Part shown: piece after piece, positions 11,007 through 55,113 of the stretch
Numbering within the stretch: the stretch's first letter is position 1
Layout: every line of letters begins with the position of its first letter
Source of the DNA: an uncultured Amylibacter sp.
GTDB lineage: Bacteria; Pseudomonadota; Alphaproteobacteria; Rhodobacterales; Rhodobacteraceae
Length of the DNA: 64,000 bases
Assembly: GCA_947497475.1 (NCBI GenBank)
Contig: CANMGS010000004.1
Span: forward strand, 1 to 64,000
Direction of reading: 5' to 3'
Notes under the pieces: generated by a model
Told to the model about the DNA's origin: nothing
Databases searched by the model: none
The model's input: the letters and a program-made list of their open reading frames with translations, nothing else
Position numbers and translations under genes: made by a program

Positions 11007-11138
11007 TACTGTTGAGTTCGCCTAATTTTAGCCTACAATAGATTGTAAATTGTTATTAATACTAACCTTTTAGTTGTGAGTTGGTGCCAGCAAAGCACCC
11101 AAGCCTCGAAAAACTCAATGCAATGTGGAGAAAGCCAT

Positions 11139-17100: not shown

Positions 17101-20100
17101 ATGTAACAATAGAAAATGTGAACGTCACAGATAGCATCATTGCTGGTACGTGCTCGATTGGCACTTTAGCGCCAGGAGCCACAGACAGTAGCTGTATATT
17201 TGTAAAATCTATTACTCAAGAGGACATCGATGCTGGTAGTTTTGTAAATGAAGCCACAGTTGATGGAGATCCCGCTATAGGTAGTCTCACACCTATGACT
17301 GGTAATGTCACTGTATTTGGCCCTGAACGCGAACCATCCTTTGCAATTACAAAAAATGCAGATGTAAATGATTTTGATGAACAAGGGGATTTAATTACAT
17401 ATACATATCTTGTTGCAAACACAGGAAACATCACGCTCTTTGATCAACCTGTTATTGTTGATGATAAGATTGGCACATTCGATTGCGGAACAATACCTGC
17501 GACAGGTTTGGCTCCTTTAGATAGTGTTACATGTACGCAAACATACTCCGTCACACAATCAGATGTTGATGCTGGCTTCGTAACCAATATCGCTTCTGTA
17601 ACATCAACAGAAGTAACTGAAGCAGCAACAGCTACCGAAACTGTTAATTCAACACGTACACCCAGCCTGAGCTTTACAAAAGTTGCCACAATTTCAAGTG
17701 GCGCTACAACCGCAGCTGTAGGAGATACAATTACGTATACGTATACAGTGACAAACACTGGAAATGTCACACTCACAAATGTGGATGTGGAAGACGATCA
17801 AACCAGTGCCTCAGGAACAGCGGCACTTACAGTTTCTGATGATACCTTACTAACAGACAATGGTTTGCTCAATGATAGTTCCGATCCTAGTGGCTCCAAT
17901 AGTATTTGGGATAACTTGGCACCTCTTGATGTTGTTACCTTCACGTCGACATATATTGTTCAACAAGCTGATATTGATCTTGGGAACGATTTATCAAATA
18001 CGGCAACAGTCAGCGGAGCAGGGCCACCTGGAACAATTTCACCTCAGCAACAAGTCACCGTAGACGTACCAGTCGAAGCAGCAGACCCAACTCTTGAAGC
18101 AATAAAAACAATCTCAAACAGCACTGGAAACACTGCTGGAGATACAATCACATTCGAAATTACTATCGAAAACAAAGGTAATGTCACATTAGACAATGTT
18201 ATACTTACCGACACTATAAGTAGGACGGATACAACACCGTTAACATTAACATCTGGCCCAACATTACAATCAGGAGATAACGGTGTAGCAGGTGATCTAG
18301 AAGTCGGCGAAACATGGATATACCAAGCGACCTATATATTAACCCAAGAAGACATTGATGCTGGTGGTATATCAAACACTGTTCTAGTGGAAAGCACAGC
18401 ACCAGACGGCAGCCCTGTAAATGACATATCTGGCGATGGTACCCTTGCGGGCGCTGATAATCCAACCTTATTCACAATACCATCCAATCCATCTATCTTT
18501 GGAGAAAAATCGATAACATCTTCTACTGTCACTGTTGGAGAAACCGTAGATTTCGAAATCACAATTACAAATAATGGTAATGTAACGTTAACGGATGTGG
18601 ATGTATCAAGCGATAGTCTTACACGCTCTGATACTTTACAGACTCAGTTGGCTTTAACAACGCAACCAAGCTTTGTATCTTCCACAAACGGTTCTCCAAG
18701 CGGTACTTTATTGCCGAATGAAGCCGCCACATACATCGCATCATATATATTGGTTCAAGAAGACATAGATGCCGGTGGTATATCGAATACAGCGGTCGTA
18801 ACAGGCACACCACCAATTGGGTCCCCGATTACAGACATCACAGATAACGATAGTACAAGTGGTGGTCCCGACGACCCAACTGAATTAACAATTCCAGAAA
18901 ATCCGTTATTAGAGCTCGAAAAAAGACTGGCTGTTGGGCAGAATCCTAACTTTTCTACATTAGATGAAATCATCGAATATGAGTTTATTGTAACCAATGC
19001 TGGCAACATAACATTGCCTGGGCCATTCACAATTTCCGACGCTAAAATTGAAGCACAGGGTAGGGCACTGACATGCCCTCCCGTTGCTTCGCCAGGCTTA
19101 GCGCCTGATGCCACGCTCACATGTACAGGTAGTTATCAGATTACTCAGGACGATCTTGATGCTGGTCAATTTGAAAACTCTGCTACGGTTAATGATGGTA
19201 TATCTCCAACAAGTGATCCATCAACATTTACCATACCTGCCGTCCAAACACCTTCTATGGAACTTGAAAAGACAGCAGAAGATATTCCAGCCGCTGATTT
19301 TATAGAAGGTAAAGAGGTAACATATACCTATACTGCTACAAACACGGGCAATATCACACTGATTGATCCGATTATCATCACTGATAACCTAATTCCAGAC
19401 AGCGACTTCACATGCCCTACATTCCCAACAGAAGGCATTGCTCCGCAACAGTCATACGTTTGTACTGCTACTTATACCGTAACCAGTAACGACGTATTTT
19501 TAACAAGCGTCACAAACATTGCCAGTGCCACAAGTGGGACAACTACTTCGCCTCAAACATCTGAAACAATCCCGCGAGCTGGTGTTGCAAATTTAAGTAT
19601 CCAAAAAACAGTAGCACCAGGAACAACATTCTCTGAGGTCGGAGATACGATAGATTACACCTTTACAGTTACCAACTCAGGGACACAGGCATTTGCCAGT
19701 GACGTAATTATAAAAGATGACAGGCTTAGCACGGACTTAATTTGCTTTGATTTCGTTGCTGGTTCATCTGGTACCTTTAACGCTGGCGCGACTGCAACTT
19801 GTTCAGGGAGCTATACTGTTACCCAAGACGATCTTGATGCGGGGGAAATTTTCAATGAAGCTTTCTCACAAACAGAGTTTAGTGATGGGGCAACCCCACC
19901 AAATCTGACTACGGTCGTTTCAGACCCAAGTAACGTTACAACGCCCGCATCAATTGCTGCAGCTTTAACGATTGTAAAAACAGCAACACCTGATCCTATA
20001 ACTATAGTGGGCGAAACCGTTACTTATTCAATTGTGGTCACTAATACGGGCAATCAAACATTAAACACAATCTCTGTTAACGACCCGTTATTACCAACCT

Positions 20101-23100
20101 TAGTTTGTGAAGCAGCTACCCTTCTTCGTGGGGATACCCTTACATGTTCAGATACATATGTCGTTCAACAAGCAGATATTGACGCTGGTTCTCTGGTCAA
20201 TGAAGCAACTGTAACAGCACAAACACCAAATGGGACTCCAATCACAGAATCTACAGAAATTACCACTGCTGTTCCCGCAGCAAATCCTGGGGTTGAAATC
20301 ATAAAAACTGCATCACCAACTACACTTGGACCTGTTGGGAGCTTGGTTACATATCGCTTTGCAGTCAGAAATAGTGGCAATACTACACTTAGCGATTTGA
20401 CCGTTACTGATATTTTAGACGCTAGTTACGAATGTTCAATTATGTCTATTGCGCCAGCAAATATTGATAATACATGTTTTTATGAACTCACTGTAACTCA
20501 AGATATGATTGACGCGGGTAGTTTAGAAAATACTGCAACAGTTAATGGACAAGATGCTTTTGGGACATTGGTTAACAATGACAATAGTATCGAGACTTTT
20601 GGACCAACTCGCACACCATCTTTAGAGGCAACAAAAACATCAACAATCGTTGGTACGGCTGTCGGGCAGATTGTTGATTATCAATTGACTGTAGAGAATA
20701 CAGGCAATGTCACTTTAGACATTACAAATGTGACAGATACTATGACCCGCCTCAACGGTCGCTCCACATCACTCGATGCGCCTTTTATTTTAATAAGCGG
20801 CGATGATGGAGACGGACGTTTAGACGTTGATGAAACATGGGTTTATGAGGCTGCACATACAATTACACAAGCCGATGTGAATGCTGGCGGGTTTAATAAC
20901 ACTGTAAATGTAATCGCAGATAGCCCAGATGGCACAATTGTATCCGATACCTCAGATAATGGGGATGATACCGATGGCAACACAATCGATGATGCAACAG
21001 TTGTGGGGATCACAAGGTTCCCATCTATGGAAGTTGAAAAAACAATATCACAAACAGGCGCTGTTGCAGGAGATGAAGTCAAATTCATTATTAGTGCAAT
21101 CAATACTGGCAACGTCGATATTACTGTAGACAATTTACCGATTGATACGCTGACACGTGCAGATGGCACGTCTCTCACAACAACTGTACCTATTAGATTA
21201 ACAAGTACATCAGATGACGGTGACAACATACTTGAAACGACCGAGCAACTCCGTTGGGAAGTTTCTTATACCCTGACCCAAGATGATATAAATGCTGGTG
21301 GCATATCAAATACAGCGACACTTTCAGGGTTAGGGCCTGATGGAACAACGCCTGTTTCAGATGTCTCAGATAATGGCAATGATAGCGACGGAAACATCAC
21401 CGATGACGCAACTGATTTAAACATTGCTCCAAATCCTAGTATAGAAATACTAAAAGCTGCCACCACGGAAGGTGCTGCTGTTGGCGAAAATATTGTCTAT
21501 AGCTTAACCGTTATAAATAGGGGGAATGTAACGCTCTCAGACATTACGCTGTTAGACATCCTAACACGCGCGGATGGCACAGCTCTTATAATCGCAGACC
21601 CAGCATTTGAATCTACTGTTCCTTCTGGCGCTCCAGAAGGTATAATACAACCTGGTGACACAGCCACATATTCAGCACGATATACTCTAGTCCAAGAGGA
21701 CATTGACGCAGGTGGCATATCCAATACTGCGACCGTATCAGCGACAACGCCATTAAGTGCTACACTTTCCGATATTTCAGATGATCCAAACGACACTACG
21801 AATTCAGGGCCATCTGATCCAACAATCACATCTATAGCGCAAAACCCTTTGTTAACACTTTCCAAGGCAACGCTCTCTACACGTGCACTATTCCCAACCA
21901 TCCAAGAAGCAGTGTTTGAGGTTACGGTTCAAAATGACGGGAATACCACACAAACAGGGATTCAGATATCTGATGACCTCGCAGCATTTGCGGCCCCTGC
22001 AACTGTTCTAACAGCAAATGTAACTGCGACTGGTTTTACATCAGGTTCTGCAAATACTGGATACACTGGCACTGGGGCCAATGAATTACTTTTAGGAAAC
22101 GCTACACTTAGGCCTGGAGACCGCGGAATAATCCAAATTACGACTACATACTCTACAGACGGGAGCGGCTTTCCATCACCTGGATTAAACACGGTAACAG
22201 GATCATCCGACCAGTTAACATTGATCACGCCTGCGGTAACTACTGTCAGTTCAGCCGATACAGACAATGACGGGACACTTGATTCATTAGAAGGTTGTGG
22301 GCCTTCTGATGACCGCGACAATGATGGTATCTGTGACGCAGAAGATTTTGACCCAACAGGATATTTTTACTGCCAAGAAGATGGTCGTATATTAACAGGT
22401 GGTATCATCACGGTAACAGGTGGCGGTTTTACTCAAACGGGCACGGGCACAAATGGACCTATCCGTATACTTCAAAGTGGCATTAATGGTTTCTATCAAT
22501 TTGATGTAACAGCACCTGGTACATACACCCTGAGTTATTCTGATCCAACAGAAGGCGTTGCATCTACGTCGCGCTTACCAATTACCGCTGCAACACCTGT
22601 ATCAACTCTCGTAGATGTAATTGCAGGAACCACAACAACCAATCCACGTATACTTGGTTCAAGCGAAGCTGGTGCTTCTGGTAACTTGGCCGACTTCTCA
22701 ATCGCAGGTAATCCACGCTGGTACACTACATTCACAATTGCAGCTGGGGATCCAAATGTATTTTCAAACAACATTCCGTATCAGGCATGTACAACACCAG
22801 GTAATTTAACGGCAACCAAAGCAGTGGTAGGGCGCTCCGATGTTCGGATCGGTGACTATGTAAATTACCGTTTGGATTTTGACCTTGGCGCTTCAGGTGG
22901 TGCCATTGCGAATGCCACATTGGTCGATCTACTACCAGCGGGAATAGTGTATTTACCAAACTCGGCAATGTTTTCACTCAATGGTGCAACACCAGTCCAG
23001 ACTGAGCCAACAATAACTGGGCGCCGTTTAGAATGGGTTGGCCAAAATATCCCAACGTCATCCACCCTTACAGTTACACTTACAACGCGTGTGGCACCCA

Positions 23101-23789
23101 ATGCTCCTTTAGGGAAGTTGACAAACCAAACTTTTGCAGCTTCATCAACTGGAACATTGCTATCTAATATTGCCACAGCAGTTGTTGAGCGTATTCCGGA
23201 ACATGTATTCGATTGTTCTGATGTGATAGGTAAAGTTTTTGATGATAAAAACCACAACGGTTATCATGATCAAGGTGAACCAGGATTACCAAGTGTACGC
23301 GTTGTCACTGTAAAAGGAACCCGTATAACAACAGATGAATATGGCCGTTTCCACGTGCCTTGTGCAGAGCTACCCGAAGATATTGGTACGAATTTTATAA
23401 TGAAGTTGGATACACACAGCTTACCAACAGGTTATCGTGTAACTACAGAAAACCCTCGAGTGGTGAGATTAACAGCTGGCAAATTTGCAAAATTAAATTT
23501 TGGCGCGGCAATTTCAAATGTTATCCGTATCGATTTAAATGCCAAAGCGTTTGATGATGTAACTATTTTAAATACTAAATTTAAAGCAGCTTTAAAAAAC
23601 ATGATAAACCAGATGAAAGATAAACCATCCGTCATCCGCTTAACCTATGTACTAAATGATGGAGCATCCCAAAAGCAGGCACAACAACGTTTATTATCTG
23701 TGCAAAAATTTATCAAATTAGAATGGCAAAAACACGGCCAGTATAAACTCAATATAGAACGCACAATTAAAAAACCTGTTGAAAAATGA
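11139..23789 (+). CDS. Second giant DUF11/DUF7507-type repeat surface protein (about 4,216 residues)
   Basis: An upstream GTG at 11076 is in frame, but the ATG at 11139 has a well-spaced GGAG (11127-11130) and is followed directly by a signal peptide (hydrophobic core LLQYLAAFIGLVSLLIPL, ending TYA before TTF). Domains in order: a non-repeated N-terminal domain (about nt 11240-11850) with LDCGFTDC; about 29 Ig-like repeats of 100-130 residues (about 11850-22250), typically VEKT, GDTITYTFTVTNTGN, a VTDD segment, C, LAPG, C, and YTVTQADIDAG with NTATA; an Asp-rich thrombospondin-3-like calcium motif (DTDNDGTLDS and DRDNDGICDAED, about 22256-22365); a CNA-B-like segment; a DUF11-like domain (about 22800-23185); and the shared C-terminal module. 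Most repeats carry a cysteine pair, unlike giant 1. Probably a Sec-exported cell-surface filament or adhesin; ligand unknown. Confidence 0.87.
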   Translation: MANRFPEYQKTSLLQYLAAFIGLVSLLIPLKTYATTFTTTVPGTSITLPTDYPQAGGVAMVYVGVNGNIYYQFSDPAGAFRGFNSNANPRQFQGNPFTINSPLQLDCGFTDCRTYFGGDIANMYIRFSAYDGDTQRNGFDEDDISLVLNGFNIGNWSDIQTELTNNSGTVSQGFTTGFGNNTFNTGWFETTNQALLNDILDSGEVTTQVFDRDPNDNFWDFRRGPRLNNAEIVTVAPGYTIEKTSDRSTFTAVGDVINYEYKVSNIGSVRITNLSVTDDKISNVQCLDTTIIAVPFGTAEPDSAICTGQYTVTQEDFDNEAVTNIANAIGTPEFGVLGNLTDTLTVTGPSISPSIEVRKSTTLTNFSNAGTTIPYNFEVENTGDATLTNVVVTDARIPSLSCSFATLARDAIETCSGTYTVTQADVNDFIINGNQLQNTASVTSLAPNGSTPSDTDVNNLDGPTSQPAFTINKLASNSNFQNVGQVINYQFQVRNTGNVDLPSPPAITDSLGIPVNCPAGAIAVNELRTCTAQYTVTQPDIDAGKIDNTANATITVGGVTALGTSNVSVPAVRNTGLQFVKRLTPGSTSSFDDTGVTLSYDYELRNTGNVTLQNPSVIDDKTTVVCTEASIAPQQQIICTASYDTTQEDLNAGSVTNVATASATPFGETTPLTSTQQSVTVNGQRLPALSLDKVGGTATPAFTVGSTITYTFNITNSGNVDILDPITITDDKIGNFPCLSGPLVRGATDSCTAVYTLTSADISANSVTNIATASDGIVTSPSDSETVANTTPPEITLSKAADISPIPAGTTTVGYTFTVVNSSSTVQIIRSSSPITIDDPKIGAVDCTTNQPTTFNPGDSFTCTGTATLNQAEIDAGEVINTATASFPFTLGGTASTFTTPSAIATTPITENLNYRFDKTGPTNFTTVGETLTYTFEVENLGNVTLTQVNITDPLIPTLSCPITNLAPSATTSCTGDYIVTQTDVDSGQIDNTATATGLTASGGQLDMTSVQTSTRPAQVADTQFTVDKTANLTAFNAVGDVITYAIEVQNTGLQTLTSVSVTDVLDPGFSCMISSIVPGQMDSSCTFTHIVTQADIDAGGIINIASATSGSVGPITSTLTIPGPTRVADFSIEKNASGAYNSALDTIDFTIKVKNTGNVTLSTVDVSDATLFSPAQTCQITNLLPNAEDTTTCVFTYTVQQADVDIGVINNTATATGLGADGTSIPEKSASEQVNGPTENASLNVAKVEDTPTGDYTNLPTTESFTITVENTGNVTITNVVVTDDLIGLNCTIASIDPGVTATSCSSGLMTGTYTVTQADIDNGSFENTATATGSTVRGASPTSTGRVTLTGPAMDPALTVVKSTTFIGTYDTVGQQIDYNYLVTNSGNQTLLSSITISDDQIPLVSCPALTGGTFAPNDTLTCTGSYLVTQEDIDRGSITNIASATNTTNGVTTTSTNATQQVFATQNPVISLDKRLKSTSLGTYNAENDTVIYEYVVTNTGNTTITNDIFIDDNRFPTDLTCTVGGTDLAPNAQIICEQTYIIQQADVNAGSVTNTAQAFTGPNLAAATLTSNTDQVTVTAIQSPALTITKTYIEGLSEDPLDDPAATDLFVENEVLDYDFTITNSGNVSITLDPATVISDNRIGPFICTGTPPLLEPGESHTCSASYTIVSADIALGAVTNIASASGTFGIDTITSPTDDALFPVDAMPAVTIEKLADVTTFNAVNDPIIYTYNITNTGNTDLPSPGTVTDDKFTTTGPLTCNDPSGGVFSRLETTPTEIATCTQTYFVTQEDLDAGFVTNEAFALTSFNSLPVQSPAAIVTVTGDTTATLLLTKTVSPTAPADLNDLLTYTLTASASGNQTISGVEITDPLLSGLTCSQGTTTLTTANLDPNGDPLVCTGTLTVTQEMLDAGEVVNTGNARGSAPDGSNVTTSAENRLTTITALPSLSIIKRIDPVPTAVGDPSYSAVDQDVTFVIDVQNTGNVTIENVNVTDSIIAGTCSIGTLAPGATDSSCIFVKSITQEDIDAGSFVNEATVDGDPAIGSLTPMTGNVTVFGPEREPSFAITKNADVNDFDEQGDLITYTYLVANTGNITLFDQPVIVDDKIGTFDCGTIPATGLAPLDSVTCTQTYSVTQSDVDAGFVTNIASVTSTEVTEAATATETVNSTRTPSLSFTKVATISSGATTAAVGDTITYTYTVTNTGNVTLTNVDVEDDQTSASGTAALTVSDDTLLTDNGLLNDSSDPSGSNSIWDNLAPLDVVTFTSTYIVQQADIDLGNDLSNTATVSGAGPPGTISPQQQVTVDVPVEAADPTLEAIKTISNSTGNTAGDTITFEITIENKGNVTLDNVILTDTISRTDTTPLTLTSGPTLQSGDNGVAGDLEVGETWIYQATYILTQEDIDAGGISNTVLVESTAPDGSPVNDISGDGTLAGADNPTLFTIPSNPSIFGEKSITSSTVTVGETVDFEITITNNGNVTLTDVDVSSDSLTRSDTLQTQLALTTQPSFVSSTNGSPSGTLLPNEAATYIASYILVQEDIDAGGISNTAVVTGTPPIGSPITDITDNDSTSGGPDDPTELTIPENPLLELEKRLAVGQNPNFSTLDEIIEYEFIVTNAGNITLPGPFTISDAKIEAQGRALTCPPVASPGLAPDATLTCTGSYQITQDDLDAGQFENSATVNDGISPTSDPSTFTIPAVQTPSMELEKTAEDIPAADFIEGKEVTYTYTATNTGNITLIDPIIITDNLIPDSDFTCPTFPTEGIAPQQSYVCTATYTVTSNDVFLTSVTNIASATSGTTTSPQTSETIPRAGVANLSIQKTVAPGTTFSEVGDTIDYTFTVTNSGTQAFASDVIIKDDRLSTDLICFDFVAGSSGTFNAGATATCSGSYTVTQDDLDAGEIFNEAFSQTEFSDGATPPNLTTVVSDPSNVTTPASIAAALTIVKTATPDPITIVGETVTYSIVVTNTGNQTLNTISVNDPLLPTLVCEAATLLRGDTLTCSDTYVVQQADIDAGSLVNEATVTAQTPNGTPITESTEITTAVPAANPGVEIIKTASPTTLGPVGSLVTYRFAVRNSGNTTLSDLTVTDILDASYECSIMSIAPANIDNTCFYELTVTQDMIDAGSLENTATVNGQDAFGTLVNNDNSIETFGPTRTPSLEATKTSTIVGTAVGQIVDYQLTVENTGNVTLDITNVTDTMTRLNGRSTSLDAPFILISGDDGDGRLDVDETWVYEAAHTITQADVNAGGFNNTVNVIADSPDGTIVSDTSDNGDDTDGNTIDDATVVGITRFPSMEVEKTISQTGAVAGDEVKFIISAINTGNVDITVDNLPIDTLTRADGTSLTTTVPIRLTSTSDDGDNILETTEQLRWEVSYTLTQDDINAGGISNTATLSGLGPDGTTPVSDVSDNGNDSDGNITDDATDLNIAPNPSIEILKAATTEGAAVGENIVYSLTVINRGNVTLSDITLLDILTRADGTALIIADPAFESTVPSGAPEGIIQPGDTATYSARYTLVQEDIDAGGISNTATVSATTPLSATLSDISDDPNDTTNSGPSDPTITSIAQNPLLTLSKATLSTRALFPTIQEAVFEVTVQNDGNTTQTGIQISDDLAAFAAPATVLTANVTATGFTSGSANTGYTGTGANELLLGNATLRPGDRGIIQITTTYSTDGSGFPSPGLNTVTGSSDQLTLITPAVTTVSSADTDNDGTLDSLEGCGPSDDRDNDGICDAEDFDPTGYFYCQEDGRILTGGIITVTGGGFTQTGTGTNGPIRILQSGINGFYQFDVTAPGTYTLSYSDPTEGVASTSRLPITAATPVSTLVDVIAGTTTTNPRILGSSEAGASGNLADFSIAGNPRWYTTFTIAAGDPNVFSNNIPYQACTTPGNLTATKAVVGRSDVRIGDYVNYRLDFDLGASGGAIANATLVDLLPAGIVYLPNSAMFSLNGATPVQTEPTITGRRLEWVGQNIPTSSTLTVTLTTRVAPNAPLGKLTNQTFAASSTGTLLSNIATAVVERIPEHVFDCSDVIGKVFDDKNHNGYHDQGEPGLPSVRVVTVKGTRITTDEYGRFHVPCAELPEDIGTNFIMKLDTHSLPTGYRVTTENPRVVRLTAGKFAKLNFGAAISNVIRIDLNAKAFDDVTILNTKFKAALKNMINQMKDKPSVIRLTYVLNDGASQKQAQQRLLSVQKFIKLEWQKHGQYKLNIERTIKKPVEK
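23187..23786 (+). repeat. Copy 2 of the C-terminal module shared by both giant proteins
   Basis: Matches 6722-7325 almost throughout (ERIPEHVFDCSD, VFDDKNHNGYHD, RVVRLTAGKFAKLNFGA, final LNIERTIK). Divergence concentrates in the helical tail. This is a dispersed paralogous module, about 16.5 kb from copy 1 and in the same orientation. Confidence 0.85.
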
Positions 23790-34349: not shown

Positions 34350-35858
34350 CTATTCTCCTCGTGGAAAGCGTTGGCTTTCTTCCAAATTATCTAAATTCAT
34401 ATGATTACGCATATAGCGTTCCGATGCTTTTTGCAGCGGCTGGTAATCCCATGGGAAATAATCCCCATTTCGCAAAGCTTCATAAACCACCCAACGACGC
34501 GCCTGGCTTTCACGCACTTGCGCATCAAACTTATCAAGATTCCAACGCGCTTCTGACTTTGCTTTTAGCTGTGTGAGCGTACCTTGATGTTCTGGCACCT
34601 CTGCTAAGTTCGTCAACTCATGTGGGTCATCATCCAAGTTGAACAATTGATCTGCGTCTAAAGAACAGCGGTTATATTTCCATGGGCCATACCTTAACGA
34701 AACCATAGGCGCATAGGACGCTTCTGCAGCATATTCCATTGCAACAGGGCTGGTGCGTTCACCCCCCTGCCCTAAATGAACAAGACTTTCACCTTCAACC
34801 CAAGGCATCACTTCATCCATTGAAACACCTGCCAAATCGCAAAGCGTTGGTGTCACATCAATATTCGAAACAGGCGTCATTACCAATCCTGCCTCCATAG
34901 TTGGCGATGACACCATCAAAGGCACACGAGACGATCCTTCAAAAAAGGACATCTTAAACCAAAGCCCACGTTCCCCCAACATGTCACCGTGATCAGACAC
35001 AAATAGAATAGTCGCGTCTTGGCGCGTTGTTTCCAACGCTTCCATGACTTCGCCAATCTTGTCATCTAAATAGCTAATATTGGCAAAATACGCACGGCGG
35101 GAAGTTTTGATTTGATCCTCGGTAATATTAAAACTGCGCCAATCATTTGCATCAAAAATACGTTTCGAATGCGTATCATGATCTTCGTAGGCCATTGCTG
35201 GAACTTCAGGCAAAAGATGTTCGCAATCTTCATACAAATCCCAATATTTCTTACGCGCCACATAGGGATCATGGGGATGTGTAAAACTAACAGTCAAACA
35301 CCAAGGGCGGTCGTCATTTCCACGCGCCAAATCATAAACCTTACGTGTTGCATTATAAGCAACCTCGTCATCATATTCCATTTGGTTGGAAATCTCGGCA
35401 ACACCTGCACCAGTGACTGACCCCATATTATGGTACCACCATTCGATCCGTTCACCTGGTTTGCGGTAATCAGGTGTCCAGCCAAAGTCTGCTGGATAAA
35501 TATCTGTCGTCAAACGTTCCTCAAACCCATGCATCTGATCTGGGCCAACAAAGTGCATCTTTCCTGACAAACATGTTTGATATCCAGCGCGACGTAAATG
35601 GTGTGCGTAGGTAGGGATATCTGAACAAAACTCCGCAGCATTATCATAAACACGGCTACGTGACGGCAAAAGGCCAGACATAAAAGAGGCACGACCAGGT
35701 GCACACAAAGGCGATGCTGTATAGGAATTCTTAAATCGCGTAGATTTTGCCGCTAGCTTCTTCAAATTAGGCGCATGCAGCCAATCCGCAGGGCCATCTG
35801 GAAACAAAGTTCCATTTAACTGATCTACCATGAAAATCAGAATGTTTGGCTTTGGCAT
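34350..35858 (-). CDS. betC: Choline-sulfatase BetC
   Basis: Type I sulfatase hydrolysing choline-O-sulfate to choline, the first step ahead of BetA and BetB. About 502 residues. The sulfatase signature [13 protein letters not shown] carries the Cys converted to formylglycine (C-x-P-x-R); metal-binding IFMVDQLNG and [13 protein letters not shown] are present. An upstream ATG at 35870 lies within the SD region (GGGGATAAAG), so the ATG at 35858 is preferred. First gene of the operon. No betI regulator or choline-sulfate transporter gene is seen nearby. Confidence 0.93.
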
Positions 35859-46559: not shown

Positions 46560-47255
46560 TCATACATTAACACGAATAGTTCTGATTGTAGGGTCAACGT
46601 GATTAACAGCCCGCAGTATTTCACTTAGTAAATGCGTTTCAACATACGTCGCATGAAATTTTGTTGGGGCCATTAATGTTAAACATCCACCATCCCTGCC
46701 CGCTTCCTGTAATTGCTGGAGCCAAGCAACATACGTTGTACTGTCTTGGTCATACATAAATACAGACGCAGATGACCAAATAGAACCATCATCATTTGGT
46801 CGGATTTGCTTAGCTGTTGAAAAGGGTACGATATTCGTTTTATGCACGTTTTGTGCTGTAGGAGCTATTATTTCAGTTAGACGAAGAACAAAATCTGGGC
46901 CTATTTTCTCCCATTCGCCTTGTGTTTCTTTCAAGACAATATCCAGATTAATTCGATAAAGAGTAACTCGCCCGCGGGCCCCTGCCCTTTTAACCTCTAA
47001 CCAGCCTTTGGACTTTAGTTTTGCAAGTTCACGTTTGACCGTTCTTTCATCTACAGACCACAGCTTAGCAATTTCTTTTTGGCCCATACTCAATTCATCG
47101 CGCTGCCAATTGTATCTGGTTGTGATCAGCGACATTAAACGCAAAATAAGCTTTTGCGTGTGCTTCTCCCGCGCCAAAGCATAGGTCATTAACGCAGAAA
47201 GAATATCATATTTCTTTGTCGCAGCATCACGCCCGACGGCTTTGCTTGCCAACAT
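46560..47255 (-). CDS. DnaA-like plasmid replication initiator
   Basis: 231 residues. Residues 16-105 form a winged-helix region (QKEIAKLWSVDERTVKRELA, then a Lys/Arg-rich wing GRVTLYRINLD). Residues 160-231 resemble the DnaA N-terminal domain: TTYVAWLQQLQ, CLTLMAPTKFHATYVETHLL and IRTIRVNV, matching the DnaA pattern of W-L, L-x-AP-x-xF and a final strand. There is no AAA+ ATPase domain, so it is not chromosomal DnaA. The divergent parAB beside it makes this the DnaA-like replicon type known from Rhodobacterales plasmids. SD AGGAAGG sits upstream of the ATG. It probably binds the adjacent dyad/iteron region. Confidence 0.8.
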   Translation of the reverse strand: MLASKAVGRDAATKKYDILSALMTYALAREKHTQKLILRLMSLITTRYNWQRDELSMGQKEIAKLWSVDERTVKRELAKLKSKGWLEVKRAGARGRVTLYRINLDIVLKETQGEWEKIGPDFVLRLTEIIAPTAQNVHKTNIVPFSTAKQIRPNDDGSIWSSASVFMYDQDSTTYVAWLQQLQEAGRDGGCLTLMAPTKFHATYVETHLLSEILRAVNHVDPTIRTIRVNV

Positions 47256-47649: not shown

Positions 47650-47663
47650 TTCCCCGTGGGGAA
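47650..47663. other. parS-like palindrome 1
   Basis: TTCCCCGTGGGGAA: perfect 6-bp arms with a GT centre, 90 bp upstream of parA. One of four copies in 2.35 kb. Confidence 0.7.
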
Positions 47664-47753
47664 GATTTATAATTATACAATATTACCTTTTGCTTTTTTT
47701 GCAAATAAGACGTAATTAGCAATTATAAAAGAATTTACGTCCAGAGGCACATT

Positions 47754-49061
47754 ATGTTCGACCACAAAGACCTTCATCATTTGCATGAGCAATCTCTGAA
47801 AATGCAGAGTTGGATCAGGCAGCAGACATTTAGTCCCGAAATGGAAAAGACTTTGCGCAGATTCTCTAGTTGGGAGGTGTCGGAGCTTATCCTAAAGGTG
47901 AATCAATCGACTTTTAGAGGGCGCTTAGCAGCGGATCCTTCATTGCCTGACGGTGAAGTAGAAGAGGATGGGCGTCAACGTTGGTATTCACTTGAAGAGA
48001 TTAACGAGTTGCGCCGCAAGATGAAGGTGAATCGCAAAACTTTAATGCCGCCTCGCCCCGCTGGAAAACGTGCATTTCGCGCTGCAATCGCTAATTTTAA
48101 AGGTGGTGCTGGTAAATCAACAGTTGCGTTGCATTTCGCACATGCGGCGGCACTTGATGGTTATCGTGTGTTGGTGGTTGATTTTGATCCACAAGCGACG
48201 TTGTCACACAGTATGGGTTTGCATGATGTTGCTGAAGACCACACCGTTTGGGGAATTATGGCGCGCGATCTGATTAAAGAAACAGACCGTATGAATTCCA
48301 GCTCAGTTGCAGCAGCAAGTGGCACCTCCCTGCCCCAACGCAAGCTGCCGGCTTCTATTCGAGATATGGGATTGGATGAGTTGCGTGTTAATGATTTTAT
48401 CAAACCAACTGCATGGCCGACGATTGATATTGTGCCCTCATGTGCAAACGCAGCCTTTGTCGAGTTCGCATCGGCTCAGTATCGCCATCTAAACCCTGAA
48501 TGGTCATTCTTTGCTGCTGTGAGCCGTTATTTGGACGCTATCCCTGACGATGCTTATGATCTGATCATTTTTGATTGTCCGCCTGCGATTGGCTACCAGT
48601 CTATGAACGCAGTCTTTGCGGCTGATATGTTGTATATTCCGTCAGGCACTGCCTATTGGGAGTATGACAGTACAACCAGTTTTATTGGTCAGCTATCAGA
48701 AGCCTTGGAGGATTTATCCATCGGTTTTGATGGAACCTTCCCCGCGGGGAATATGACATTGCCTAAGGCTTTCACAGATGTCCGCTTCCTATTAACGCGC
48801 TTTGAGCCAGGCAATGAGTTGCACCAAGCCATGTACAGTGCGTTCCAGAAAGTATTTGGTGACCGTTTGGCTGTACACCCAATAGAGATGACCCGTGCTG
48901 TGGAGCAATCGGGGCGCTTCCTGAGTTCGGTTTACGAAATAGATTACCGCGATATGACCCGTGAAACATGGCGCCGTGCGCGCGCTACATTTGATCGAGG
49001 GTACGAGGAGTTCAAAGCCTCTATCGTCGAATCGTGGGACAAGTTGGAGGATAGATCATGA
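47754..49061 (+). CDS. parA: Partition ATPase ParA
   Basis: 435 residues. The N-terminal about 110 residues include a MerR-like helix-turn-helix (RWYSLEEINELRRKMKVNRK), as in large plasmid/RepA-type ParA proteins that autorepress. Deviant Walker A KGGAGKST at 116-123, DFDPQATLS at 143-151, and Walker B-type DLIIFDCPP. Drives segregation of the replicon together with ParB and parS. SD AGAGG lies 6 nt before ATG; a GACGTAA/TTACGTC dyad lies just upstream and may be its operator. parB follows with a 4-nt overlap. A parS-like palindrome lies inside this gene. Confidence 0.92.
   Translation: MFDHKDLHHLHEQSLKMQSWIRQQTFSPEMEKTLRRFSSWEVSELILKVNQSTFRGRLAADPSLPDGEVEEDGRQRWYSLEEINELRRKMKVNRKTLMPPRPAGKRAFRAAIANFKGGAGKSTVALHFAHAAALDGYRVLVVDFDPQATLSHSMGLHDVAEDHTVWGIMARDLIKETDRMNSSSVAAASGTSLPQRKLPASIRDMGLDELRVNDFIKPTAWPTIDIVPSCANAAFVEFASAQYRHLNPEWSFFAAVSRYLDAIPDDAYDLIIFDCPPAIGYQSMNAVFAADMLYIPSGTAYWEYDSTTSFIGQLSEALEDLSIGFDGTFPAGNMTLPKAFTDVRFLLTRFEPGNELHQAMYSAFQKVFGDRLAVHPIEMTRAVEQSGRFLSSVYEIDYRDMTRETWRRARATFDRGYEEFKASIVESWDKLEDRS
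48738..48751. other. parS-like palindrome 2 (inside parA)
   Basis: TTCCCCGCGGGGAA, perfect 14-bp palindrome within the parA coding sequence (encoding part of GTFPAGNM). Confidence 0.7.
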
Positions 49062-50176
49062 GCAAGAAACGTCGTGTATTTGATATTGATATGCCCGAAG
49101 AGGAAACCGTCCCCACGGGGAAGGTTGGGGATGATGCGCCTGAGTTAGAAACGAAAAGTATGTTCGGGCTGAAACCGAAACGCCGTGGCCCAATGGCGTC
49201 TGCAATTTCAGAGAATGCTGATAGCTTAAAGGAACGTCAGGCGGCAGAAGAGCAGATTAGAGCAGAAAATGATCATCTTGCGCATGAATATGTTAAGCGC
49301 AAAGCGGATGGCTTGGTGATCGATACGATCCCGCTTGATGATATCCTTACAGAGAAATTAGCGCGTGATAGGGCGGATGGTGAAGATGGCGATTTATCTG
49401 AGCTGGTTGCATCTATTAAAGAGATCGGATTGTCGAACCCAATTCGCGTTCAAAAGCGCGCTGATGGCCGCTTTGAATTGATACAAGGATATAGACGTTT
49501 GAGCGCATATCGTGCACTGCGCGATGATTCTGAAGGTTATGCGGAAATACCCGCAACGGTGATCTTTATGGAAGAGGGATTGGATACTCTTTACCGTAAA
49601 ATGGTTGATGAAAACCTTGTTCGCAAAGATATCTCATTTGCTGAAATGGCAAGCCTTGCGATTAAATATGCAGCTGATCCTGCAACGGAATGCGATGATG
49701 CTGATAAGGCCGTTGCAATTCTGTTTAAATCTGCGGGCTATCAGAAGCGCAGTTACATTCGAAGTTTCATTGGTTTGATGGAGCGGGTAGGGGGCGTGAT
49801 AAAGTTTCCAGCCGAAATTTCACGTGCTCTTGGTTTGGAATTGCGCAAACGTATTGATGCGGATGTATCTGTCGCCGCGTTGATCGAAAGCGATTTGCTT
49901 GCTGCAGGCCCTGACCGTTTGGCGGAAGAGGAGCAAGCAATTCTACGTCGTGCGGCTGGATTGGAAACAGATAGAAAACCCTTCCCCGCGGGGAAGGCGA
50001 GTGAAAAGCCACCACGCAAAGCCAAAACGGTTTTCAATATTGCGCGTCCCGAAGGTACTGTTAAATGCACGGCGACTGCTGGAAAACTGGAGCTGCGGTT
50101 GGCAAAAGATTTCTCAACGGTTGATCGGGTTCGGTTAGAGCAGGCTATTCGGCAGCTGTTAGCGCAAATTGATTAG
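49058..50176 (+). CDS. parB: Partition protein ParB (RepB-like)
   Basis: 372 residues. The ParB/Srx-type N-terminal domain includes IPLDDILTEKLARDR, LVASIKEIGLSNPIRVQ and the CTP-binding-type motif QGYRRLSAYRALRD; a helix-turn-helix central region (residues about 180-240) follows, then a basic linker and a C-terminal dimerisation-like segment. The N-terminus (VFDIDMPEEET) resembles plasmid RepB/ParB proteins that contact ParA. Start overlaps the parA stop (ATGA). Two parS-like palindromes lie inside the gene, one near each end. Confidence 0.92.
   Translation: MSKKRRVFDIDMPEEETVPTGKVGDDAPELETKSMFGLKPKRRGPMASAISENADSLKERQAAEEQIRAENDHLAHEYVKRKADGLVIDTIPLDDILTEKLARDRADGEDGDLSELVASIKEIGLSNPIRVQKRADGRFELIQGYRRLSAYRALRDDSEGYAEIPATVIFMEEGLDTLYRKMVDENLVRKDISFAEMASLAIKYAADPATECDDADKAVAILFKSAGYQKRSYIRSFIGLMERVGGVIKFPAEISRALGLELRKRIDADVSVAALIESDLLAAGPDRLAEEEQAILRRAAGLETDRKPFPAGKASEKPPRKAKTVFNIARPEGTVKCTATAGKLELRLAKDFSTVDRVRLEQAIRQLLAQID
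49109..49122. other. parS-like palindrome 3 (5' part of parB)
   Basis: GTCCCCACGGGGAA: one arm mismatch relative to TTCCCC/GGGGAA, within the acidic N-terminal codons of parB. Confidence 0.6.
49980..49997. other. parS-like palindrome 4 (3' part of parB)
   Basis: CCTTCCCCGCGGGGAAGG: perfect 18-bp palindrome, the longest of the four, in the linker region of parB (encoding PFPAGKA). Confidence 0.72.
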
Positions 50177-50236: not shown

Positions 50237-50280
50237 GTTGTTTTCATGTAATCCGCTTAGGTAATTTGCATGAAAACAAC
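50237..50280 (+). promoter_or_regulatory. Inverted repeat enclosing the SD and start codon of the lpxL-like gene
   Basis: GTTGTTTTCATG (50237-50248) and CATGAAAACAAC (50269-50280), perfect 12-bp arms with a 20-nt spacer. The ATG at 50270 is in the right arm and the AGG-type SD (50259-50261) is in the loop. As RNA this would pair the start codon; as DNA it could be an operator. Confidence 0.6.
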
Positions 50281-51178
50281 CCACAAAAAAACACCTGCTA
50301 AATTCTTGGAATATATCCCAATTTGGATTGGGTTATTCCTAGGGCGGTTGATGCCATTTAAAATGCGCGGTGCATTTTTTGCATGGTTAGGTGGTTTTCT
50401 TGTGCCGCTTATACCTGGGTCCCGCAAACGCATTATGAGCGGTTTGGATCGTGTTTATCCAGACATGCCAGCAGCTGATAAGGCAAAGCTTTGTAAAGCT
50501 ATAGCTGCGAGTGCTGGGCGGACAATTTCTGAAATCTTGTTCAATGATAGCTACAAAGACAGATTAGATTTATTTGATGCTTCAGGACTAGGTTTGGAAG
50601 CCTTGCAAAACGCGAAGGCCGCAGGGAAGGGCGCAATCATAGTTTCTGCGCATTTTGGACAATGGGAAGCTATTCGTCATTATCTGAAATCCCAAGACTT
50701 AGAGACAGGCGCAGTCTATCGTGAAAATAATAACCCATGGTACGAGCTGCGTTTCCTTGCCGGTATCCGCCATGGTGGCGCCCCGATTGTCGCCAAAAGC
50801 GCTGGTGGTAATTTGGCAATGGTAAGGCATTTACGTAAAGGTGGGTTCTTTGCCTTGTTGGTAGATCAGAAGTTTCAACAGGGGCATTTGATACCGTTTT
50901 TAGGGATCGATGCGCTTACCACGACATCTGCTGCAGAACTGGCATTGCGTTATGATCTACCATTGATTCCTGCCTTTGGTACGCGGGATGAGAACAATCT
51001 GAATATTCATGTTGAATTTGAAGAACCGATTGAACCATCAGATGCGCTGACAATGACACGTGAAGTGAATGATCGGATCAGTGCACGGATCATGGAGAAT
51101 CCAGAGCAGTGGTATTGGTTGCATAAACGTTGGGAAGATACATATTTGTATGAAGGTTATCACGGTGATAAAGCTTGA
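50270..51178 (+). CDS. lpxL: Lipid A biosynthesis acyltransferase (LpxL/HtrB family)
   Basis: 302 residues. Transfers a secondary acyl chain from acyl-ACP to Kdo-lipid A precursors at the inner membrane. The catalytic H-x4-E motif is seen in IIVSAHFGQWEAIRHYL; further family features are GAVYRENNNPWYE and LVDQKFQQGHLIPFLG. An N-terminal hydrophobic segment (PIWIGLFLGRLMPF) anchors it. Its neighbours are the Kdo genes, consistent with the Kdo-dependence of this acylation. Could be LpxL or the long-chain LpxXL type; not resolvable here. Start codon lies in a 12-bp inverted repeat. Confidence 0.85.
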   Translation: MKTTHKKTPAKFLEYIPIWIGLFLGRLMPFKMRGAFFAWLGGFLVPLIPGSRKRIMSGLDRVYPDMPAADKAKLCKAIAASAGRTISEILFNDSYKDRLDLFDASGLGLEALQNAKAAGKGAIIVSAHFGQWEAIRHYLKSQDLETGAVYRENNNPWYELRFLAGIRHGGAPIVAKSAGGNLAMVRHLRKGGFFALLVDQKFQQGHLIPFLGIDALTTTSAAELALRYDLPLIPAFGTRDENNLNIHVEFEEPIEPSDALTMTREVNDRISARIMENPEQWYWLHKRWEDTYLYEGYHGDKA

Positions 51179-51249
51179 TAGCCGTGGACAACGCTGTGTG
51201 ATTGTCTATTACCTTTAGAGAACTTTAAGAATGTTAGGGGCAAGGGCCT

Positions 51250-52203
51250 ATGACCGAAAAACTTTCCAATGTTGGTGCTGAAGTTTTAAAGATTGAGGCA
51301 GATGCTTTGGTCGCTTTGGCAGACAGTTTGGGCGCTGAATTTGAGCAAGCGGTTGAAATCCTGTCAGCAGTCCAGGGGCGGGTGATCTTATCGGGTATGG
51401 GTAAGTCTGGGCATATTGCGCGTAAGATTGCAGCGACTATGGCCAGTACAGGGGCACCTGCACAGTTTGTACACCCAGGCGAAGCCAGCCATGGTGATCT
51501 TGGTATGATTATGCAGGGTGATGCTTGTATTATGTTATCGAACTCTGGTGAGACGGCTGAGTTGGCGGATGAGATTGCACACACGCGTCGTTTTAAAATC
51601 CCGATGATTGCGATTACAAAGAATGCAGACAGTTCATTGGCACGTGCTGCTGATGTTGCTTTGATCTTGCCAGCACAACCAGAAGCCTGCGGTATTGGCA
51701 TGGCACCAACAACGTCTACGACGATGCAGTTGGCATTGGGGGATGCATTGGCTGTGGCTTTAATGAAGATGCGCGGCTTTGACCGCGATAGCTTCTTAGT
51801 CAATCATCCAGGTGGTAAGTTGGGTGCGCAGTTGTTGAAAGTTGAAAGCATTATGCACACTGGGTCTGCTTTGCCAGTTGTGTCTGAACAGACAGCTATG
51901 AGCGATGCCTTGTTGGAAATGACAGCCAAAGGATTTGGAGTGGCTGCGGTGGTAAAAGACCAGACACTGCTAGGGATCATCACAGATGGCGACTTACGTC
52001 GTAGTATGGATGGCTTGATGGATTTAAAAGCAGGTGCCGTTGCAACCATGGGACCTGTGACAGCAACGCCAGATATGTTAGCGTCTGAAGCCTTGGGCAT
52101 TATGAACGATAAAACAATTTCTGCTTTAATGGTTGTTGATAGTGCAGGGAGCCTGAAAGGGTTGCTGCATATCCATGATATTCTACGGGCAGGTGTGGTA
52201 TGA
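51250..52203 (+). CDS. kdsD: Arabinose-5-phosphate isomerase KdsD (KpsF/GutQ family)
   Basis: Converts ribulose-5-phosphate to arabinose-5-phosphate, first step of Kdo synthesis. 317 residues. SIS sugar-isomerase domain with GRVILSGMGKSGHIARKIAA, HPGEASHGDLGMI and LSNSGETAEL, followed by a CBS pair (about 200-317; GIITDGDLRRSMDG). Its stop overlaps the kdsB start by 4 nt; kdsD-kdsB-kdsA form one translationally coupled operon. Confidence 0.94.
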   Translation: MTEKLSNVGAEVLKIEADALVALADSLGAEFEQAVEILSAVQGRVILSGMGKSGHIARKIAATMASTGAPAQFVHPGEASHGDLGMIMQGDACIMLSNSGETAELADEIAHTRRFKIPMIAITKNADSSLARAADVALILPAQPEACGIGMAPTTSTTMQLALGDALAVALMKMRGFDRDSFLVNHPGGKLGAQLLKVESIMHTGSALPVVSEQTAMSDALLEMTAKGFGVAAVVKDQTLLGIITDGDLRRSMDGLMDLKAGAVATMGPVTATPDMLASEALGIMNDKTISALMVVDSAGSLKGLLHIHDILRAGVV

Positions 52204-52997
52204 AGACTGTTATCGTAATTCCAGCGCGTTATGCATCTACACGCTACCCAGGAAAGCCTCTGGTGGCTTTAAATGGCCCAGATGGCCCCAAAACGCTGAT
52301 CCAGCGCAGTTGGGAGGCCGCAATGGCTGTAGAGGGCGTACGCGGCGTTTATGTGGCGACTGACGATGATCGTATCAAAGATGCGGCCGAAGCTTTTGGC
52401 GCCAAGGTGATTATGACGCCTACGAGTTGCGCAAATGGCACCGAGCGGTGTGCGGCCGCCTTGGATGGTATGGATGAAGAGCCTGATTTGGTGGTAAACC
52501 TGCAAGGGGATGCGCCACTTACACCCGCTTGGTTTGTTTCTGATTTGATTGCAGGGTTTGAAAAAGACAGTGACGTTCACGTCACGACGCCAGTTTTGCG
52601 CTGTGATCTGCAAACCTATAAGAATTTTGTCGAAGACCGTAAGCACGGGCGTGTGGGTGGCACGACAGCTGTGTTTGATACGCATATGAATGCGATGTAT
52701 TTCTCCAAAGAGGTTATCCCATATGTTGGTGATGATCTGGGAGAAGGGGATGAAATCCCTGTGTTCCACCATGTTGGCGTTTATGCATATCGTCCATCAG
52801 CGTTGCGAGAATACGCTGGTTGGTCTACTGGGCCGCTAGAGACACTTGAGGGGTTGGAACAACTGCGCTTTATGGAACGTGGGTTGCCTGTGCGCTGTGT
52901 TGAGGTCGAGGGTAAAGGACGTGTGTTTTGGGAGTTGAATAATCCTGAAGACGTCCCACGTATTGAAAAAGTTTTGAACGAAGGAATGCCATCATGA
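52200..52997 (+). CDS. kdsB: 3-deoxy-manno-octulosonate cytidylyltransferase KdsB
   Basis: Activates Kdo to CMP-Kdo. 265 residues. Nucleotidyltransferase N-terminus VIPARYASTRYPGKPL, NLQGDAPLTP (the metal-binding Asp) and HHVGVYAYRPSALREY. Overlaps kdsD and kdsA by 4 nt at each end (ATGA). The product is used by WaaA, encoded on the other strand 0.8 kb away. Confidence 0.95.
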   Translation: MKTVIVIPARYASTRYPGKPLVALNGPDGPKTLIQRSWEAAMAVEGVRGVYVATDDDRIKDAAEAFGAKVIMTPTSCANGTERCAAALDGMDEEPDLVVNLQGDAPLTPAWFVSDLIAGFEKDSDVHVTTPVLRCDLQTYKNFVEDRKHGRVGGTTAVFDTHMNAMYFSKEVIPYVGDDLGEGDEIPVFHHVGVYAYRPSALREYAGWSTGPLETLEGLEQLRFMERGLPVRCVEVEGKGRVFWELNNPEDVPRIEKVLNEGMPS

Positions 52998-53818
52998 AAA
53001 CGGTGAAAGCTGGGAATCTTGAGATTAGCAATGCAAAGCCATTCACGCTATTGGCTGGGCCGTGTCAGTTGGAATCCTTGGATCATGCGCGGATGTTGTG
53101 TGAGCGTACAATGGAAGCCTGTTCTACAACGAACACACCTTATGTGTTCAAAGCAAGTTACGACAAGGCCAATCGCACAAGCCTTGAGGGTAAGCGCGGT
53201 CTTGGCATGGAAAAAGGTTTAGAGATTTTGGCTGCGATCAAAGAGGAATTTAAGGTTCCTGTTTTGACTGATGTGCATGAGATTTGGCACTGTGCGAAAG
53301 CAGCAGAGGTTGTGGATATTTTACAAATCCCTGCGTTTTTGTGCCGTCAAACGGACTTGCTATTGGCTGCGGGTGAAACGGGCAAATGTTTGAATGTTAA
53401 AAAGGGTCAGTTTTTGGCGCCAAATGACATGAAAAATGTTGCTGCGAAGATTGCATCCACTGGCAATGAAAATATTATGCTGTGTGATCGTGGTACGAGT
53501 TTTGGATATAATATGTTGGTTAGCGATTTCCGTTGTATCCCGATTATGTCTGAAACAGGTTATCCTGTGGTGTTTGACGCGACACATAGCGTGCAAATGC
53601 CAGGCGGGCAGGGGACATCATCAGGTGGTAAGCGTGAGTTTGTGCCACCATTGGCAACGGCTGCTGCTGCAATTGGTGTGGCGTCGATCTTTATCGAAAC
53701 GCATGAAGATCCAGACAATGCGCCAAGCGATGGGCCAAATATGGTGCCTGTAGATCAGATGAAAGCGTTGATCGAAAAACTATCTGCACATGATCGTTTG
53801 GCAAAAGACTTGAATTAA
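52994..53818 (+). CDS. kdsA: 3-deoxy-8-phosphooctulonate synthase KdsA
   Basis: Condenses phosphoenolpyruvate with arabinose-5-phosphate to Kdo-8-phosphate. 274 residues. LLAGPCQLES, FKASYDKANRTS, DILQIPAFLCRQTDLL, CDRGTSFGYN and DATHSVQMPGG are family signatures. The Asn in KANRTS is the position that distinguishes the metal-independent class. The Kdo-8-phosphate phosphatase (kdsC) is not in the window. Confidence 0.95.
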   Translation: MKTVKAGNLEISNAKPFTLLAGPCQLESLDHARMLCERTMEACSTTNTPYVFKASYDKANRTSLEGKRGLGMEKGLEILAAIKEEFKVPVLTDVHEIWHCAKAAEVVDILQIPAFLCRQTDLLLAAGETGKCLNVKKGQFLAPNDMKNVAAKIASTGNENIMLCDRGTSFGYNMLVSDFRCIPIMSETGYPVVFDATHSVQMPGGQGTSSGGKREFVPPLATAAAAIGVASIFIETHEDPDNAPSDGPNMVPVDQMKALIEKLSAHDRLAKDLN

Positions 53819-53841
53819 TAAACTTAGGCAATGAATTTAAA

Positions 53842-55113
53842 TTAGACCAGTTCGGCTATTTTATTAGTAATCTCTGTTAATATCTTGTCTTTGTCGTGGT
53901 TTTCAAAGAGTGTTTTTTTACTGGCCACTAGTTGGCGATTACGGAATTCATTATCCAACAGACGAAGCCAAGCTTCAGCGATGTCTTCTGCTGTATCTGC
54001 CTGTAGGGAGCCTTTTTGGGTTACCAGTTGTTCGTAGATTGCTTGAAAATTTGAATATTGCGATCCGTGAATTATTGCTGATTCATATGCCGCGGGTTCA
54101 TAAGGTGTATGCCCCCCAACTGATACCAATGATCCCGCTACAAATGTGACGGCTGCAGAAGAGTACCATATATTCATCTCGCCAACTGTATCTGCAATAT
54201 AAATATCATCTGTTTTATATGGCAGCTCACCCTGAGATCTGATTGCAGATGAAAATGTAGTTGCATTAACAAGGTCTTCTATTTCCGCAATGCGGTTCAC
54301 ATGCCTTGGAACTAAGATAAGTTTTAAGTCTGGTCGTACGTTTTTTGCGAGTGCAAATGCATCTAAAAGGATTTGATCTTCGCCTTTATGTGTTGACGCT
54401 GCACAAAGTGTAGATTGCCGTGGGAAGGCATCACGCAATTTATGAAGATCAGGATGATCCACAGGCGTTGCTGGTTGGAATTGCTTTAAGTTTCCGAGTA
54501 AATCATTTCTTTCGGCTGTTACACCAAGGCTTTCAAATCGATCATAAGATTTTTGATCTTGTGCAAAAGAGTGATCGATACAGTTGAAAACCTTATGGGC
54601 AAGTGCAGGATTGGCAAGCCAAGTCTTGGCGCTTTTTTCTGACATGCGAGCATTGACGAAAATGATTGGAATTCCGCTTGAAGCGCATTTTACGTTGCGA
54701 TTTGGGTATACCTCATTTTCAATGGTAATTAAGCAGGCAGGCTTCCAGTGATGTAGGAACTTATTGACCACTATACCAAAATCGACAGGGGCAATATCTA
54801 CATGAATGGTAGTTGAACGGAGCTTTTTAGCTTTTTCGAATGCAATTCTATTCGATACCGTGATTAACAAATCGTAACTTGGGAATTTAGCAGAAAGTGA
54901 TGGTAAAAGAAGTTCTAAAGTGTTGAATTCGCCTAAGCTTGCTGCATGCAGCCACAATAGCCTTGGGTTCGCACTATTCTCTGTCCCAAAACCTAGGCGT
55001 GCTTTGAATGTCTCAATACTGTCTTTGCCTGTTATAATACGTTGTATGAAGACAAAAGGAACAGCAAGCCAAGCGAGTGTCATAATCAAACGATATTTTA
55101 GCAAATGAACCAC
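53842..55113 (-). CDS. waaA: Kdo transferase WaaA (KdtA)
   Basis: Transfers Kdo from CMP-Kdo to lipid IVA at the inner membrane. 423 residues. N-terminal membrane anchor (LIMTLAWLAVPFVFIQRII), catalytic-glutamate region WLHAASLGEFNTLE, the ENEVYPN motif, and C-terminal VAGSLVSVGGHTPYEPAAY. GTG at 55113 is the longest start; a TTG at 55104 is better spaced from GAGG and may be the real one. Convergent with kdsA. It could be mono- or bifunctional; this cannot be told here. Confidence 0.92.
   Translation of the reverse strand: MVHLLKYRLIMTLAWLAVPFVFIQRIITGKDSIETFKARLGFGTENSANPRLLWLHAASLGEFNTLELLLPSLSAKFPSYDLLITVSNRIAFEKAKKLRSTTIHVDIAPVDFGIVVNKFLHHWKPACLITIENEVYPNRNVKCASSGIPIIFVNARMSEKSAKTWLANPALAHKVFNCIDHSFAQDQKSYDRFESLGVTAERNDLLGNLKQFQPATPVDHPDLHKLRDAFPRQSTLCAASTHKGEDQILLDAFALAKNVRPDLKLILVPRHVNRIAEIEDLVNATTFSSAIRSQGELPYKTDDIYIADTVGEMNIWYSSAAVTFVAGSLVSVGGHTPYEPAAYESAIIHGSQYSNFQAIYEQLVTQKGSLQADTAEDIAEAWLRLLDNEFRNRQLVASKKTLFENHDKDKILTEITNKIAELV

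Follow-up and report, generated by a model that had tools for sequence, protein, structure and literature searches.

Why should a bacterial partition locus carry four related palindromes, most of them written into the coding sequences of its own genes? The question arises from a 64,000-nucleotide stretch of DNA from an uncultured Amylibacter species (the window; 43.3% GC), which is part of a 129,140-bp contig, C4. An initial annotation had marked palindromes at positions 47650, 48738, 49109 and 49982 and proposed them as a candidate family of parS sites. All four are recovered in a mismatch scan of the window: exact copies of TTCCCCGCGGGGAA begin at 48738 and 49982, the copy at 47650 (TTCCCCGTGGGGAA) differs from this word by one mismatch, and the copy at 49109 (GTCCCCACGGGGAA) differs by two. 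The sole further match at up to three mismatches is located at 34353 and has three, which bears out the view that, within the window, the copies are confined to the par locus. Shuffled windows yield a mean of 1.28 such loose matches, and five or more in 2 of 100 shuffles. Thus, the loose count is just mildly unusual, and the weight rests on the exact matches. In the organism's own genome (3,022,946 bases), exact TTCCCCNNGGGGAA occurs at three places, all at the par locus, compared with none for a reversed-pattern control. When up to two mismatches are allowed, the four par sites are joined by two others, and because the control gives five matches, the loose matches elsewhere are at chance level. 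A whole-genome count therefore reveals no scatter of copies in this organism.

The first site (47650..47663, unstranded like the others) is intergenic, 104 bp before the start of parA. Its outer flanks are degenerate, and relatives have a site at the same place. The second (48738..48751) is located inside parA, where it spans codons 329-333 (F P A G N) in frame 0. The third (49109..49122) covers parB codons 18-22 and is counted as a family member because it has the consensus outer flanks (CC...GG) and just one altered base in one half-site. The fourth is an 18-bp perfect palindrome, CCTTCCCCGCGGGGAAGG, at 49980..49997 inside parB, and its core (49982-49995) corresponds to codons 309-313. The placement of three of the four copies in coding sequence and the extended palindrome at the fourth were both correctly described at the outset. 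Judging by these flanks, recognition seems to extend over 16 bp or more.

The genes at this locus are those of a ParABS system associated with a DnaA-like replicon. A DnaA-like replication initiator (Rep, 231 aa; 46560..47255, minus strand) is divergent from parAB. Its match to PF11638 (DnaA_N; E 9e-5, 22.6 bits) falls below the cut-off of 24.6 and is weak alone, and its match to PF13545 (HTH_Crp_2) is at its cut-off. Rep is present, in synteny with divergent parAB, in 147 of 158 classified loci, and the records of a sister group of loci discussed below carry the annotation 'DnaA N-terminal domain-containing protein'. The parA gene (47754..49061, plus strand) encodes a 435-aa RepA-type ParA with an N-terminal extension (PF13614, 5.9e-27; TIGR03453, 3.8e-60 and 203.8 bits, under the equivalog cut-off of 348.45). 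It has a deviant Walker A motif, KGGAGKS, at residues 116-122, whose K116-K121 part is invariant in 36 ParA sequences. The AlphaFold model of this protein is poor at about residues 298-351, a region that includes codon 329. The parB gene (49058..50176, plus strand) encodes a 372-aa CTPase-type ParB, as judged from PF02195 (1.1e-7), AlphaFold and Foldseek. Residues G144, R146, R147, E185, N186 and R189 are invariant in 36 ParB sequences, and we take these N-domain residues to be the CTPase-type motifs. The ParB model has a mean pLDDT of 76.9, rising to about 89-94 around residues 221-240, and a helix at 228-244, such that the recognition helix is predicted to begin at residue 228. Foldseek matches the model to Noc, ParB, KorB and the Caulobacter ParB entry 6t1f, with modest TM-scores (at most 0.37 by query length among the matches listed).

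With a deviant Walker A ParA, a CTPase-type ParB and palindromes near parAB that share one word per locus, the locus has the features of a type I ParABS system, and an initiator with a DnaA-like domain beside divergent parAB (its DnaA_N match being sub-cut-off) is the feature of a DnaA-like replicon. The system is a variant of ParABS rather than a new kind of system. Directly after parB is a lipid A acyltransferase gene, the first of a group at 50270-55113 that also includes genes for a SIS/CBS isomerase, a CMP-Kdo synthetase-type protein, KdsA and a Kdo transferase. KdsA (TIGR01362) was found once in the genome, on C4, which hints that the contig is a chromid. The window also carries a very long ORF (11076-23789; 4237 aa), with further ORFs of 2429 and 1199 aa upstream.

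Relatives of the locus were gathered by a scan of genome contigs, which gave 59 loci, and by a ParB search of 390 Rhodobacterales genomes, which found relatives in 219 at E <= 1e-20. At E <= 1e-76 there were 127 window-type matches, each from a different genome, and about 15 genomes contributed no stretch. The resulting 190 loci hold 183 unique ParB proteins, 161 of window type and 22 sisters. We used 160 of the window type, and the exclusions were L062 (without a ParB frame), seven loci with identical ParB and L022 (without ParA). Together, the 160 loci contain 571 sites, of which 570 entered the half-site analysis because one is without its full flank. Relatives carry the TTCCCCNNGGGGAA-type word at matching places, and loci without it have GTCCCCGCGGGGAC, TTATCCGCGGATAA or TTACCCATGGGTAA there.

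The embedding of sites in genes is widespread in this set, with at least one embedded site in 153 of 160 loci. The parA codon column occupied in the window is likewise occupied in 111 of 160 loci, always in frame 0 and in four versions (54 TTCCCC, 35 GTCCCC, 17 TTACCC and 5 TTATCC). The N-terminal parB column, corresponding to the third window site, has a perfect-armed site in 78 of 160 loci, and a mid-parB column has one in 31 of 160, in another reading frame. Of 1112 pairs of sites from the same locus, 1095 have the same arm (expectation if unlinked, 0.40), and the palindrome centre is purine-pyrimidine (R-Y) in 556 of 571 sites. This centre had seemed invariant early on (221 of 221 sites), a description that we dropped for the larger set. 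In three Alloyangia loci (L028, L029 and L061), the roughly 3 kb around parAB contain 12-15 perfect copies of GTCCCCGCGGGGAC, a number far above that in most relatives.

The in-frame copies encode similar short peptides, and hence the words might be thought to arise by chance or as a by-product of coding for a conserved peptide. Yet the parA peptide itself shifts with the DNA word, reading FPAGK/N, VPAGT, LPMGK or LSADK. Among the first 58 ParA proteins, those of class B are mostly without the parA site and have varied residues there (LPSGT, LPDGA, VPPGT, TPGST); the site is present in 7 of the 36 class B loci of the full set. Conservation at fourfold-degenerate positions places the site codons at ranks 1, 2 and 10 of 171 in parA, at ranks 1, 2 and 4 of 93 in parB of the window's class, and at ranks 1-7 of 110 in parB of class B. 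When synonymous codons were shuffled in 158 genes, parA had 136 sites observed versus a mean of 2.79 (maximum 8), and parB had 145 versus 3.73 (maximum 9). For the window's genes alone, any site arose in 108 of 20,000 parA shuffles and 332 of 20,000 parB shuffles. The fourfold-site conservation and the excess over synonymous shuffles argue that the DNA word itself is selected, and together with the genome count they lead us to reject an origin by chance or peptide coding, to which we assign a negligible probability. The claim that coding constraint does not suffice is upheld, and selection acting on the DNA of the embedded sites is well supported by these sequence comparisons. The accompanying expectation that relatives would not lose the palindromes silently holds in large part: silent change inside the sites is rare, but L010 and L017 each have one such change at the parA site.

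What escaped the initial annotation is that the site sequence varies by lineage and follows two residues of ParB. When six word classes are defined by arm plus outer base, lineage-specific word switching amounts to 11 changes on a FastTree phylogeny in which 46 of 157 inner branches are poorly supported, against a mean of 89.8 for shuffled classes. Of the 347 ParB columns, the two with the highest normalised information are residues 228 and 229, in that order, although by raw mutual information residue 229 is outside the top six. Across 147 loci, residue 228 is top of 1000 columns (347 ParB, 432 ParA and 221 Rep) by two measures. In the window, this putative specificity pair is Tyr-Gln, encoded at 49739..49744 on the plus strand as computed from the parB start. 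Among half-sites, Q229 occurs with CC at -4,-3 in 976 of 976, and A229 and N229 likewise accompany CC; S, T or V at 229 occurs with A at -4 in 154 of 154. For residue 228, Lys occurs with G at -7 (215 of 216), Tyr with C at -7 (457 of 478), Arg with G at -6 (384 of 396), and Pro or Ala with T at -7 (43 of 50).

These associations suggest a code in which residue 228 would specify the outer bases and residue 229 the inner bases. At 228, Lys would stand for G, Tyr for C, and Pro or Ala for T at -7, with Arg for G at -6. At 229, Gln would stand for CC, Thr or Val for AC, and Ser for AT or AC at -4,-3, with Met for AAC at -5 to -3. The expected residue pair is found in 148 of 158 loci. The 10 exceptions include L119, which has Pro and Val with T-TTACCC, and L154, which is labelled GTCCCC and has Tyr with C flanks and one C-TTCCCC site. 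Two loci, L017 and L132, have hybrid sites only and no perfect-armed site. In L017, from Maritimibacter alkaliphilus, the sites at 2591, 4068 and 5126 each combine one TTCCCC half with one TTTTCC half, and the residues are Tyr-Ser; this may be a locus caught in the middle of a specificity switch. With many sites embedded in parA and parB, a switch in specificity would rewrite several words of a locus at once, including protein sequence. Taken as one package, both halves of the code, this rewriting, the proposed state of L017 and the reading given below for copies on other contigs strike us as somewhat favoured.

The sister loci offered a further view of this relationship. Their residues were first inspected after the 228/229 pair had been set, when the sites of four sister loci were already known. 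Sister arms are TAACCC, TTACCC or TTACCG. Residue 228 is Lys in all 22 sisters, with G at -7 in 88 of 90 half-sites, and residue 229 is Thr or Val with TAC in 18 of 18 half-sites and Met with AAC in 72 of 72. The sisters with Lys and Thr, L067 and L195, have G-TTACCC as the code predicts. Thus, the putative code also held in 22 loci whose residues had no part in forming it. For the RepA-type relatives L068-L071, the comparison covered the HTH stretches. In genomes that have both a window-type and a sister system, the words of the two differ in 10 of 10 examined. In 19 of 22 sister loci, two or three palindromes fall within a stretch that runs from the 3' end of parB to about 90 bp past it, and the remaining three loci have either one copy or not as many as two with the same arm. 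Sites in the sisters thus cluster at the parB stop codon, which makes the spread, gene-embedded layout a trait of the window's group, and the contrast that had been drawn with clustered centromeres can now be made within a single family.

It is conceivable that the sites are parS, that specificity resides elsewhere in ParB, and that the association with 228/229 reflects phylogenetic hitch-hiking. The word classes are mostly clades, and sign tests on independent pairs, with 2-6 pairs per contrast and none discordant, have too few pairs to reach 0.05. However, one tree underlies all columns, and it is 228 and 229 that lead the normalised ranking of ParB. These two residues are adjacent and at the start of the predicted recognition helix, and words combine residue by residue, as in L119 and again in L067 and L195. 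We therefore consider hitch-hiking unlikely, while giving it more credence than any other alternative discussed here.

Our preferred reading, which we hold to be very probable, is that a DnaA-like Rhodobacterales replicon is segregated by a ParABS system for which the palindromes serve as parS sites, and that ParB residues 228 and 229 read the half-sites. The proposal of a parS family is thereby supported as the best account of the palindromes. We infer that ParB would bind as a dimer whose recognition helices each read one half-site, with the inner bases (-4,-3) recognised by residue 229 and the outer bases (-7,-6) by residue 228. ParB loaded at the sites would then undergo CTP-dependent clamp closure and spread across the parAB region, and ParA would move the spread ParB to bring about segregation. 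Besides the spacers, the sites would occupy tolerant parts of parA and parB, and the amino acids there would be dictated by selection for the DNA word.

The sites might instead be operators for Rep or ParA that serve autoregulation or replication control. The first site is within the divergent rep-parA spacer, and the N-terminal extension of ParA resembles that of RepA-type repressors, but the majority of sites are found within genes or downstream of parB. Moreover, the column that best tracks the word is in ParB (0.92 across the 147 loci, above 0.73 for ParA and 0.67 for Rep), and Rep and ParA were rejected as readers of the word because their columns track it less well than ParB 228. Operators in place of parS thus seem quite improbable, and the first site may serve as both parS and operator. 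Still less probable, in our judgement, is that the words are RNA hairpins such as terminators, attenuators or RNA-stability elements. In a simple scan (7 found in all; shuffle mean 3.4), two of the four sites come out as terminator-like, and the extra copies in Amylibacter marinus, 24-bp palindromes that contain runs of A and T, look like terminators. Hairpins leave unexplained the word shared within a locus, its tracking of ParB residues and the R-Y centre, and an Rfam search for the words as an RNA element gave no match.

As parS sites, the palindromes can be compared with those of known systems. The window locus is like the DnaA-like replicons of Rhodobacterales in its Rep-parA-parB arrangement. 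The source paper on these replicons is reportedly that of Petersen et al. in 2011, which may hold an earlier description; in those portions of the literature available to us, neither parS sites for DnaA-like replicons nor a 228/229 pair was recognised. A literature search for the 14-mer string returned one maize paper only among the matches listed. Judging from the available parts of the reports, L047 (a 103,367-bp plasmid) and L034 (92,007 bp) are both named DnaA-like I (PMC4572655, PMC4148953). They differ in parS word and in ParB pair, and thus replicase type and parS class are separate classifications.

For repABC plasmids, the available portion of one account gives the parS consensus GTTNNNNGCNNNNAAC, describes group-specific words and discusses sites inside coding sequence (PMC9040568). 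The window's system is similar in having alphaproteobacterial ParA and ParB relatives, palindromes near or in the par genes and group-specific words. Its operon has no repC downstream, and its sites are without the outer G/C of GTTNNNNGCNNNNAAC. Unlike repABC, the window's group keeps the embedded codons while the word changes. In Bacillus subtilis, a chromosomal parS is located within the spo0J gene, which resembles the embedding of sites in the gene of their own ParB here. We know of no lineage-wise rewriting of that word at a fixed codon. The switch between parS and NBS in ParB and Noc, as far as the accessible text describes it, involves residues 173 and 201 with permissive changes at 179 and 184, and the conserved K171 and S172 contact parS (PMC7383237). 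In both cases, DNA preference has changed in nature by way of a few HTH residues in what Foldseek matches as the same fold, whereas in the window's group the variable pair starts the recognition helix. By analogy, ParB 228/229 is probably the counterpart of about residues 170-172 in ParB/Noc.

Together, the 160 loci and 22 sisters amount to a large natural data set on the apparent joint change of a centromere and its reader. How a DNA-binding protein and its scattered sites can switch specificity without loss of function is a long-standing question that becomes directly testable, and in harmless marine bacteria, with this set, which also offers fixed codons where a DNA-binding word appears to dictate protein sequence. 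Perhaps two ParB residues are enough to predict the parS class of a plasmid, and compatibility typing could then be refined past the replicase.

Copies outside the par locus occur in some relatives. In the genomes of 20 relatives (20 of the 59 loci), there are 1-15 exact copies each, mostly in the par cluster among the places listed. The absence of chromosomal scatter therefore extends to relatives only in part: there are dispersed extras, above all in A. marinus and two Litoreibacter, and other-contig copies in these three refute confinement to the par locus in every relative. The nine copies on other contigs of A. marinus all read AAACC-TTCCCCGCGGGGAA-GGTTT. In L229-L234, these nine 24-bp palindromes, AAACCTTCCCCGCGGGGAAGGTTT, have otherwise unrelated flanks, and six are arranged in pairs 52-53 bp apart. 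They may be terminators or captured parS sites. The eight Litoreibacter copies examined have G at -7 in 15 of 16 half-sites, which is the flank of their own class, and three copies from other genomes fit their own-class flank less well. Given the own-class flanks, the ParB of the replicon could also act on the main chromosome in A. marinus and Litoreibacter. An orthologous stretch shared by the two Litoreibacter (L237:1-614 and L242; 82% identical) has a class B palindrome in a conserved block. A Pfam search of the open frame around this extra copy gave no match, and the frame reads FPAGN through the palindrome.
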